From an uncultured Leptolyngbyaceae cyanobacterium (GTDB taxonomy: Bacteria > Cyanobacteriota > Cyanobacteriia > Leptolyngbyales > Leptolyngbyaceae): a stretch of DNA of 64,000 bases. Shown piece by piece: positions 6,435-48,700 of the stretch. The DNA is taken from contig CALIDI010000018.1 of the NCBI GenBank assembly GCA_938023035.1, positions 1-64,000 of the forward strand, given 5' to 3'. The notes under the pieces were generated by a model, which was not told where the DNA came from, did no database searches, and saw only the letters and a program-made list of their open reading frames with translations. Each line of letters starts with the position of its first letter. The stretch's first letter is position 1. The position numbers were made by a program, and so were the translations under genes.

Positions 6435-6572
6435 GGGTGCATATCACTTTTGCCCTCACCTTAAATCCCTCTCCCAATTTAGGAGAGGGCCTTTGAGATG
6501 GCTCGACTCCCCTTCCCTCAGGTTGGGAGCAGGAGTTGGGGGATGAGGGTCTGCAAAGGTGACATGCCCCCC
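6435..6572. repeat. MITE-like palindromic repeat, copy R1
   Basis: About 138 bp with inverted ends: GTGCATATCACTTTTGCCC on the left and the complement of GGGGGCATGTCACCTTTGC on the right, with internal palindromes such as CCCTCTCCCaatttaGGAGAGGG. The copy at 12718-12802 matches the reverse complement of this one over about 50 bp, and the copy at 22908-23003 shares its ends. It occupies the 6189-6626 gap, which holds no credible gene. Confidence 0.7.
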
Positions 6573-12299: not shown

Positions 12300-12445
12300 A
12301 GTGCATCCCAGTTCTGCAAATTTGCCCACTCTTTGGGCAGAGCAAAGCTCTAAAGCCTCTACCCCTGCTCTCAGAACAGGAGAAGGAGGGCCAGATTCAA
12401 ACAACTTCTCTCATTCTGGACAAGAGCTTGAGGGTGAGGGATAAA
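12300..12445. repeat. Interspersed GC-rich repeat, diverged copy R2
   Basis: Contains CTACCCCTGCTCTCAGAACAG, GGCCAGATTCAAA and TTGAGGGTGAGGGATAAA blocks shared in part with copies at 20285, 23138 and 48478. The boundaries are approximate. Together with R3 it fills most of the 12168-12886 gap, in which I see no convincing gene. Confidence 0.45.
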
Positions 12446-12717
12446 AGGCAGGACAGACCCTGTGAGAGCTTTACCTCCAAAAAATGCGACAACGTGATTC
12501 CGACTGCTAGCTTTACCGTACTTATAAAGTGACTGATTCTGACACATCCGTCGTCTAAGTAAGACGTTAGGGTTAACGCGGGCGATTTAGGCTGCATGTA
12601 CTCAATTATTCTCTAGTATGACCTAAAATTTGAGAAACTAAAGATGATAGAAATACTGAAACCTTGCGATCGCGGGTTCAACTAAGCTACACAACTGAGG
12701 ATAAGCTCACAGAGCTT

Positions 12718-12802
12718 GGGAGCCTGCCGCCTTTGCAGGCCCTCATCCCCCGACCCTTTCTCCCAACCTGGGAGAAGGGGAATATCAGAAGTGACATGCA
12801 CT
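12718..12802. repeat. MITE-like palindromic repeat, copy R3
   Basis: CCTTTGCAGGCCCTCATCCC, then CTCCCAACCTGGGAGAAGGG, then AGAAGTGACATGC. It aligns with the reverse complement of R1 along its whole length and ends in the family terminus GTGACATGC. Confidence 0.65.
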
Positions 12803-12886
12803 CTTCTCACAGAATGCGGTTTTACTTTTTTGAACCAGCCCATTCTAGGTTTTAGGGGTCGCGATCGCGTTTTACCGACTGAGAAA

Positions 12887-20118: not shown

Positions 20119-20552
20119 TCGGGCTGTGATCTGTCAGGGATGATTGCCTGGGTTGGCAACCCACAGCCAATCGGCCCTTTGTCACTACTGAGGCGATTCT
20201 CTGAGTGCTGAACCGCCCTCATTCTCCCTTATTTGCATGCCCGTCAGGGCGATACCACTACTGCACGCACCCTGTGGTCTACGCCCACACCGGGGAGTAG
20301 GGGAGCCAGATTCAAAGCCCCTCTCCTAGAATTTGGGAGGGAAGTTAGGATGTGTCGCTTAGCGGGGCTTTTGCTATCTAAAATCGCTGATCGTTCGACC
20401 CGCTCGCCGCATGTCAAAATGTACGAGTTTAGTGGCACCCTGTTACACATCATCCCGATAAAATTTCGAAGAGTGTTTTTCTGGGATTGGTCACCGGTCA
20501 TCGTTTCTTTTGTGAACAACCCATCTGCTGCTAAGAACCTTCTCAGCTTTCT
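20119..20552. repeat. Gene-free interval holding repeat copy R5 (about 20285-20345)
   Basis: Within the interval, GGGGAGCCAGATTCAAAGCC and CTCTCCTAGAATTTGGGAGG at about 20285-20345 are shared in part with R2 and with the copy at 23138. The remainder shows no credible gene; it contains the leader of the GT2 gene that starts at 20553. Confidence 0.5.
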
Positions 20553-22794: not shown

Positions 22795-22907
22795 CGCTGC
22801 TATGCAACATTTAACCGACCGAATAGGAAAGCAACGCCTTCCACGATTGAACCACTAGAAAGCAGCCAGCCGTTTAGGCCGCTTGAAGCCCAAACGCACC
22901 CCGTACT

Positions 22908-23003
22908 GAGAGCATGTCACCTTTTCAGGCTCTCTCCCAAATTGGTAGAGGGATTAACGCAATCCGGACATACCAGAAAAGGGTGAGGGCAAAAGTGACA
23001 TGC
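22908..23003. mobile_element. MITE-like repeat, copy R4, flanked by a 9-bp direct repeat
   Basis: 96 bp starting with GAGAGCATGTCACCTTTTC and ending with GGCAAAAGTGACATGC, so the ends are inverted copies of GCATGTCAC(T/C)TTT. The 9-mer CCCCGTACT occurs exactly at 22899-22907 and 23004-23012, immediately outside, which looks like a target-site duplication. No coding capacity is present. The rest of the 22795-23249 gap holds a second repeat fragment at 23138 and a 44-codon open run (23000-23134) that starts inside this element. Confidence 0.7.
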
Positions 23004-23137
23004 CCCCGTACTTGATAGCCGTTGCCATCGCCACCATTGCCGCAGCCCGTCAGCAAGCCTATCTAGCCCTAGGGCAGCTGACTTGGATTTGTCCTAAGCT
23101 GTCTGTCCAAGGCGATATTCTACATTCCGTGTAAACG

Positions 23138-23222
23138 GAAGCAGGGAACCAAATCAAAGCCCCCTCTACTGCTCCAGGAAAGGGGGATAGCCCTAACAGG
23201 CATTCAAGAAAAAGGAGGGTAA
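23138..23222. repeat. Interspersed GC-rich repeat, fragment R6
   Basis: GGAACCAAATCAAAGCCCCC, CTCCAGGAAAGGGGGATAGC and AAGGAGGGTAAGGGC resemble R2 and R5. Boundaries are approximate. Confidence 0.4.
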
Positions 23223-23249
23223 GGGCAGCCAAACAGATGCCTGAATCTA

Positions 23250-24017
23250 CTAGCGCCCAATCATCCTAGCTGGCGCAGGCACCGCTGGCTTGCGGTTAGG
23301 GGCTAGCTCTCGATGGGGTGAATGCACAGGTAACAGCATTTCAAGATTAAACCGGTAGCCCACATTCCGCACAGTTTGAATCAAATTGGGTTGACGAGGA
23401 TCGGTCTCCACCTTTTTGCGCAGCGATAGCACATGGGTATCGACCGTGCGAGGGTTATCAATAGCATCGGGCCAGGCTCGCCGTAACAACTCAGAGCGGC
23501 TTAAAGGTGCTCCCCCGGCCTGAGCTAAGACGTATAGCAAACTAAACTCCTGCGGGGTCAGCTCAATCAAATCGCCCTTAAACTTGACTCGCCGCTGCAC
23601 CAAGTCAATTTGCAAATCGCCAAAGTCTAAAGAAACGGGCGGAACTGCTGCCTGCCGCCGCCGCAATAATGCCTCTACCCGAGCTAAAAACTCCTGCATC
23701 CCAAAGGGCTTGCTCAAATAGTCATCGGCCCCTGCCCGCAACCCAGTGACAATGTCGGCCTCCGTCGTTTTTGCCGATAGGATTAAGATCAACGTGGACT
23801 GTTGCTGATATAACCAGCGACAAAACTCAATTCCATCTCCATCGGGTAAGTCAGAATCCAATATCACCAGGTTGGGCTGACGGCTTTGGAACACTTCACG
23901 GGCTTGACGCAGGTCAGCCGCTTGACAAACCCAATAACCTACTTGCTGGAGATGCCAGCCTAGCAGCGATCGCAGGTGGGGGTTTCCTTCAATAATTTGG
24001 ATGCAAGCTGCTCCCAC
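23250..24017 (-). CDS. OmpR-family response regulator with an atypical receiver
   Basis: 255 residues from GTG 24017; the upstream frame stays open without a better start. The receiver (5-115) has the phospho-acceptor D54 (LDSDLPDGDG) and K103 (SKPFGMQ). However, the usual acidic pair is IIEGNP, with E10 and a glycine in place of two aspartates. The winged helix (128-226) is canonical (LTPQEFSLLYVL, RTVDTHVLSLRKK, QTVRNVGYRF). A 25-residue Pro/Ala/Arg-rich tail follows. It should bind DNA as a dimer and regulate transcription; the target is unknown. It is isolated, without a kinase, and may be controlled by something other than phosphorylation (inference). Confidence 0.9.
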   Translation of the reverse strand: MGAACIQIIEGNPHLRSLLGWHLQQVGYWVCQAADLRQAREVFQSRQPNLVILDSDLPDGDGIEFCRWLYQQQSTLILILSAKTTEADIVTGLRAGADDYLSKPFGMQEFLARVEALLRRRQAAVPPVSLDFGDLQIDLVQRRVKFKGDLIELTPQEFSLLYVLAQAGGAPLSRSELLRRAWPDAIDNPRTVDTHVLSLRKKVETDPRQPNLIQTVRNVGYRFNLEMLLPVHSPHRELAPNRKPAVPAPARMIGR

Positions 24018-25222: not shown

Positions 25223-25447
25223 GGGTCGATGGTGATGTTTGGGTCAGGCTGCTTGGGACTGCCCTAAATGGTAAAGCCTCCTAACCTATGCCAGGAGAGG
25301 ACGATTGGGGGCGTCTCTAGCAAAGATAACAGGGGCTGTGAGTGATCTGGCTAAACTGAAGAAAGGGAGTCTTGGTCTCTTCCAACAGTTCAGCCTCTAA
25401 GCATAGTGAATTTTGTCACGGATACCAATCACGACTCGGTGGTGCTG

Positions 25448-25612
25448 AACGAAGGGATGACTTGCCCGCATCCCTCTTGCTGGAATGCTCGCTAGAGCGA
25501 TACCCTTCCCCCAATTAAGAGAAAGGAGTGAGAGAATCTGTTTTCTCTCCCAAAAGCAGAGGGCCGGGGTGAGGGTGAATTGAATTGGGAGATTCCTATC
25601 CAGATTCAGCAG
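25448..25612. repeat. Interspersed repeat, second subfamily, copy R7
   Basis: GATGACTTGCCCGCATCCC at the left, paired purine/pyrimidine palindromes in the middle, and GGGTGAGGGTGAATTG with TATCCAGATTCAGCA at the right. The copy at 48478-48642 follows the same order of blocks. It lies in the 25223-25726 gap upstream of the RNase III gene, where no other gene is seen. Confidence 0.65.
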
Positions 25613-48387: not shown

Positions 48388-48477
48388 AGGGCTTTCTAAA
48401 GTATTTTTTAGAGAAATTTTAGATAAGCGGTGAGGGGCTTCTCGACTGCACCCAAGTTGTTCTGGCCATTTATTCGG

Positions 48478-48642
48478 CGTTGCTCAATGGAGGGATGAAT
48501 TGCCCTCATCCCCTTTCTTGAATGCCTGTTAGGGCTATTCTTCTCTTCCCATTGGGAGAAGAAAGCTTTAGAGCCTGTTCTCTCTCTCTTTGGGAGAGGG
48601 CTAGGGTGAGGGCGAATTGGCTGCTTTCTATCCAGATTCTGC
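48478..48642. repeat. Interspersed repeat, second subfamily, copy R8
   Basis: GATGAATTGCCCTCATCCC, paired CTTCCCATTGGGAGAAG, CTCTCTTTGGGAGAGGG, then GGGTGAGGGCGAATTGG and TATCCAGATTCTGCA. The same block order occurs in R7 (25448-25612). Confidence 0.65.
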
Positions 48643-48700
48643 AACGTCACTCACTTCATCGATTTCGCGGCGGTCGCTTTTATGAGCAGAAATTCAGGAT

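Follow-up and report, generated by a model that had tools for sequence, protein, structure and literature searches.

Short, palindromic repeats that occur in many intergenic copies and lack coding capacity have been described from cyanobacteria as MITEs—for example, Nezha and the elements of Anabaena sp. 90, whose 147 MITEs were classed as type II and showed no similarity to the ends of resident IS elements (PMC3542288). The family analysed here resembles these in all four properties but differs in that its partner family is known from relatives, a separation drawn from the descriptions of elements whose sequences may overlap. Among autonomous elements, the closest described system is the ISMich2 group of the ISKra4 family (p-MULT 4), which has two frames with a predicted -1 frameshift; all of these Mutator-like transposons carry inverted repeats of 18–39 bp and direct repeats of 8 or 9 bp (PMC3942029). 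Our elements match this group in end starts (GGG/GAG), in inverted repeats of ~18 bp and in 8- or 9-bp duplications, and the partner elements found in relatives also have two overlapping frames; the copy examined here, R4, differs in having no gene, with 18–20 bp of the ends in common and an interior unrelated to the IS. The idea of exchangeable non-autonomous parts is shared with the Tn3-derived TIMEs, although there the transposase family is another one and the mosaics are built by TIME ends, as opposed to one core between unrelated ends (PMC4133298). In the literature on the repeat, apart from the subscription papers on Nezha and on cyanobacterial small dispersed repeats, TTTAGGGTGAGGG was not found; with the same papers set aside, the literature on chimeric or modular MITEs and on small dispersed repeats held nothing on the core.

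The DNA analysed (the window, 64,000 nucleotides) is positions 1–64,000 of contig 18 of a draft genome of 4.75 Mb in 62 contigs, estimated to be 95.9% complete (G000). R4 is a 96-bp unit on the forward strand (22908–23003) that starts with GAGAGCATGTCACC and ends with AAAAGTGACATGC. As an earlier, sequence-only reading had observed, and as we confirm, CCCCGTACT lies directly on either side (22899–22907 and 23004–23012, no strand assigned), identical at 9/9 positions on reading of the sequence, and the unit has inverted ends built on GCATGTCAC (22912–22920 and 22995–23003), with arms at 22912–22924 and 22991–23003 that are 92% complementary. The left terminal inverted repeat, GAGAGCATGTCACCTTT, placed by sequence reading and alignment, covers 22908–22924 (+), and the right one, AAAAGTGACATGC, covers 22991–23003 (+). 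Between them lie the one remaining hairpin of the core, its second (CTCTCTCCCAAATTGGTAGAGGG, 22930–22952, +), and the right edge of the shared core (GGGTGAGGG, 22981–22989, +). R4 is an internal-deletion derivative of a longer, 160-bp form, relative to which it has lost the first hairpin and the family's final ACCC at the right end; because this ACCC is conserved, R4 itself may be immobile. A search of the window against Rfam gave no match. Directly to the right of R4, at 23150–23255, is a further repeat copy (GGGGGATAGCCCTAACAGGCATTCAAG...) with relatives at four loci of the same genome (L107, L004, L013, L027) and a 25-bp exact match at 48514–48538.

Within the 64-kb window, with one mismatch allowed, GCATGTCAC is no more frequent than expected by chance. 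Across the 4.75-Mb genome it occurs at 155 sites, compared to six for the reversed control, so the ends of R4 are not a chance feature. A search begun by BLAST with copy R1, and continued with a profile from 29 copies (family model R1, alignment A1), returned at least 151 copies. A complete unit of the family measures 137 bp (GAGAGCATGTCACC...GTGACATGCACCC), with the consensus layout GAGAGCATGTCACCTTTGCAGG-core-CAAAAGTGACATGCACCC and ends of 18–20 bp, and a second form of ~160 bp has ~23 additional bases (AGCAATCCGGGCATACCAGAAA...). The 96 bp that the sequence-only reading had taken as the unit are therefore a real but shortened element, and its 9-bp duplication, correct for R4, becomes 8 or 9 bp across the family. 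Two further copies that it had named do carry the same ends as R4, with one boundary of each displaced by a base: R1 is a full-length 137-bp copy on the reverse strand at 6435–6571 (not 6572), with its core at 6453–6549 and a decayed duplication (5/8 matching), and R3 starts at 12718 as given and ends at 12803 (not 12802) on the forward strand, its second hairpin deleted, its left end degenerate and no clean duplication beside it. Positions 12718–12781 of R3 align at 83% with R1 read in reverse complement, again as described. A candidate duplication for R3, CTCACAGA at 12706 and 12806, was rejected for being offset from the ends. At 137 bp, and at 96 bp in R4, the unit is too short for a transposase gene, and the family combines what characterises MITEs—short and non-coding sequence, terminal inverted repeats, target duplication, high copy number and empty sites.

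Other repeats in the window were seen beside these copies. The intervals 48474–48643 and 25436–25611 form a second repeat family, a pair 70% identical, with a core-like interior (...GGGAGAGGGCTAGGGTGAGGG) and other ends (GGGATGAATTGCCC / CTATCCAGATTC). Two intervals, 12347–12446 and 20274–20353, match the core weakly (29.5 and 25.2 bits) and lack GCATGTCAC ends; they may be decayed copies bounded by different ones.

The flanks of the copies bear directly on the alternative that these are static intergenic palindromes, REP- or boxC-like or terminators, spread by recombination and with a coincidental flanking repeat. Among 69 full-length copies in the window's genome, 13 have exact 9-bp and 12 exact 8-bp duplications flush with the ends, whereas random pairing of left and right flanks predicts 0.18 and 0.16 (jointly, 25 versus 0.4); in the same 69 copies, widths of 7, 10 and 11 gave no signal. 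Near-exact duplications of 8–9 bp flank 38/69 copies, against a control mean of 0.6 and a maximum of four in 2000 shuffles. The relative G015 gives a still clearer picture, with exact duplications at 15/20 copies and near-exact ones at 19/20 (control 1.0), and with an empty site resolved to the base: two copies (L118 and L127) lie inside a dispersed repeat of that genome as AAGG-CTCAAGTC-MITE-CTCAAGTC-T(T/C)TG, and the paralogue L132 reads uninterrupted as AAGG-CTCAAGTC-TCTG. Two more paralogues there (L138 and L117) are likewise uninterrupted, with slightly different targets. For one locus of the window's genome (L024), the joined flanks form an unbroken alignment with no fewer than ten related genomes, all MITE-free, at a flank identity of 67–72%, which is too low for the exact target to be read in the relatives. 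For R4 itself, the joined flanks compared with 42 genomes of the family matched in their coding part only and revealed no empty site spanning the junction.

Some features of the core do fit static palindromes. It consists of two near-perfect palindromes, the single-strand fold of 22899–23012 is stronger than that of shuffled sequences (z -3.2), and its second half resembles short E. coli repeats, with weak matches in 3204/5426 genomes—among them the palindrome CCCTCGCCCCCTCGGGGAGAGGGTTAGGGTGAGGGG downstream of adk, which we take to be boxC-like—and another on an Azospirillum plasmid. The likeness to boxC-like palindromes of E. coli is, however, weak (E 0.2–10), extends over ~38 bp only and includes no transposon ends; REP and boxC elements are palindromes without transposon ends or duplications, whereas the MITE family has both. 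Selection on a folded RNA was considered and rejected: paired positions seldom change in a compensatory way (covariation term -0.64), so no selection on the fold is evident. The duplications and the base-resolved empty sites contradict the static reading for the element, and partner IS elements with identical ends also speak against it; we regard it there as highly improbable, and for the core alone it could still apply. The interpretation offered from sequence alone, a mobile non-autonomous family, is instead supported by dispersed copies with common ends, duplications, empty sites (for the family, if not for R4) and intact partners in relatives.

These partners were found by a search for the end pattern in 97 genomes, with further elements added through a search for the ISKra4 family. 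Intact elements of 1147–1180 bp in relatives carry the same ends, inverted: GGG(A/T)GC(A/G)TGTCA. They comprise L053 (G090), L036 (G065), L135 and L142 (G015), L150 and L151 (G006) and also L143, and duplications of 8–9 bp flank all of these except L151. Their transposases score 255–285 bits against the ISKra4 family model NF033572 (cut-off 205) and are encoded in two overlapping frames, the first short and the second longer; because this two-frame layout fits the published description (PMC3942029), we assign them to the ISMich2 group, a placement by frame layout as opposed to a tree. In the window's genome, family and protein searches recovered one ISKra4 fragment (C5:28293–28661, 50% identity, three stops), which lies near an end of another subtype (GGGTGCATCCCAC, L153); the draft assembly (95.9% complete, 62 contigs) yielded no intact partner transposase. 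Mobilised MITEs usually share their genome with an intact partner, although they need not. The copies here look orphaned; as the assembly is a draft, in which an IS could have dropped out at contig breaks, loss of the partner is likely rather than proved. The mean divergence of copies from the consensus, 9.3% in the window's genome versus 2.5% in G015, points to an old burst in the former and a recent one in the latter.

The want of an intact partner is also what favours mobilisation by some other transposase family that shares these ends by chance. We consider this very unlikely: the match spans the terminal G and 13–18 bp of the end, MITEs and IS elements alike are flanked by duplications of 8 or 9 bp, such elements are present in several related genomes, and among the elements encountered here no second family had these ends. 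Our preferred reading, to which we give a probability of roughly 90%, is that R4 is a MITE copy moved in trans by a transposase of the ISKra4 family, ISMich2 group, that it belongs to a decayed fossil burst and that its core is exchangeable. Under this model, the prokaryotic Mutator-like enzyme would act in trans on the MITE, recognising G(A/G)G(A/T)GCATGTCACYTTTGC-type ends and inserting the MITE DNA with an 8- or 9-bp duplication. The copies in the window would then probably represent a fossil burst whose partner is gone and which is decaying by point mutation and internal deletion, R4 being one such decayed copy, and the interior would be a double-palindrome module of ~95 bp, found also between unrelated transposon ends, such that ends and core may be exchanged. 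Since the window's own assembly holds no intact partner, we infer mobilisation there from the relatives: the family, its ends, the duplications, the empty sites and the IS elements with the same ends are seen in the sequences, and transposases like those of the relatives would have moved the window's copies.

The evidence for an exchangeable core comes from a profile search of 242 genomes of the class, 62 of which contained matches. Many of these cover only positions ~21–122, the interior without the ends, and were therefore not selected through their ends. The core keeps the same architecture (CCCTCATCCCCCARCCCCTTCTCCC-loop-GGGAGAAGGGGAGCC-linker-TCAAAGTCCCTCTCCC-loop-GGGAGAGGGATTTAGGGTGAGGG) where the ends around it differ, and we sorted these ends into five types: A, GCATGTCA (the window's genome, G015, G026, G078, G047 and G023); B, GCATCCCA (G049, G250, G043, G146 and G201); C, GCATCTCA (G046, G057 and G183); D, TAGACCTCTTGC (G005, G059 and G213); and E, ACGCGATGTGCAACT (G123). 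For types B and C, individual copies have 8–9-bp duplications (e.g., L195, L206 and L215), and ISKra4 transposases occur with GAGTGCATCCCA-type ends (L138–L141, L149 and L154). Type D ends bound a 905-bp IS5-family element (L268) and an interrupted one (L269), both in G005 (NF033581, PF13359, PF13613). These IS5-family elements have TA on both sides, read as their target, a dinucleotide already contained in the search pattern; four loci found by the core model (L247, L255, L242 and L252) have TA on both sides independently of that pattern. Type E ends surround the core at no fewer than five loci of G123, and a search for their transposase found none. Cores from types B–E are 87–91% identical to type A over ~97 bp (z 35–41 above dinucleotide shuffles), and those between differing ends in differing genomes have a mean identity of 78%, values that overstate conservation because copies from other genomes were picked as best matches to the window-family model; 35 bp outside the cores score 0.41, versus 0.35 for random sequence. 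Shorter core variants occur in G006, G020 and G032.

Several arrangements were noted in passing. Tandem or partly duplicated cores with a single end between them (L192, L211, L212, L223 and L227) apparently arose by unequal recombination between copies. At L058 (G047), a type A end adjoins a perfect palindrome (GCGAGCGTCTCGCTCGCGAGCGGGACGCTCGC), and a second type A end follows ~107 bp on in the same orientation. The complete genome G023 has nine GCATGTCACCTTTGC sites, all on one strand, and each of its copies pairs a GCATGTCACCTTTGCGCCC end with a GTCAGTTTTGC end. In plasmid records, the whole core was found in cyanobacteria only (Kovacikia, Leptolyngbya, Pseudanabaena, Tolypothrix and others); phage records did not contain it. 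On the Pseudanabaena galeata plasmid pPg_02 (L266, 155024–156321), tandem core-like copies lie within an annotated coding sequence for a DUF559 domain protein, and the core may therefore be translated there.

The shared core might be no module at all, if a single MITE lineage had ends that drifted and the few unrelated ends were misread degenerate copies. For three of the types drift suffices: GCATGTCA, GCATCCCA and GCATCTCA are all ISKra4-like, with one or two positions distinguishing them, and could have drifted along with the transposase. The remaining two are a different matter, as neither TAGACCTCTTGC nor ACGCGATGTGCAACT has any likeness to GCATGTCAC; core copies with both TAGACCTCTTGC ends intact recur in three genomes (G059, G213 and G005), one of which, G005, has an IS5-family element with those same ends, and in G123 the core is repeatedly bounded by ACGCGATGTGCAACT. 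On balance, drift as a full account seems unlikely. There are also ends without the core, of type A (L034, L052 and L056) and of type D (L270, L271 and L276), and these, together with one core between different ends, imply several combinations of end and core, with modular parts; the middle of such MITEs thus appears, on these sequence comparisons, to be a reusable module. An exchange of ends might proceed through nested insertion. At L034 (G064), a type A element is inserted exactly at the core's left edge, in the target GCCCTCATC that forms the core's start, and the type D element L269 is interrupted by an ISKra4 element. Insertions of this kind would put new ends beside a core, after which the switch could be completed by a deletion or by another insertion; this route, like the core's function, is something we only infer.

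The element itself is an ordinary MITE with an identified partner family, and the partner of an abundant orphan family could be named although it is probably lost from that family's own genome; G015, with copies 2.5% from the consensus and many ISKra4 elements, is a place where the family might be seen active. The unusual part is one interior common to unrelated ends across the class. Tentatively, and at somewhat less than even odds, the core may be a class-wide module taken up repeatedly between the ends of transposon families that are unrelated to one another (ISKra4/ISMich2, IS5 and one or more others), persisting while the carrier transposase changes. If so, it would be either selfish by itself or helpful to any MITE, for instance by binding a host factor or because its hairpins, present in both directions, make insertions tolerable. 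With one interior between unrelated ends, what the core and what the ends contribute to the success of a MITE can be told apart, and the old question of why prokaryotic MITEs so often have an interior unlike any IS is made testable.
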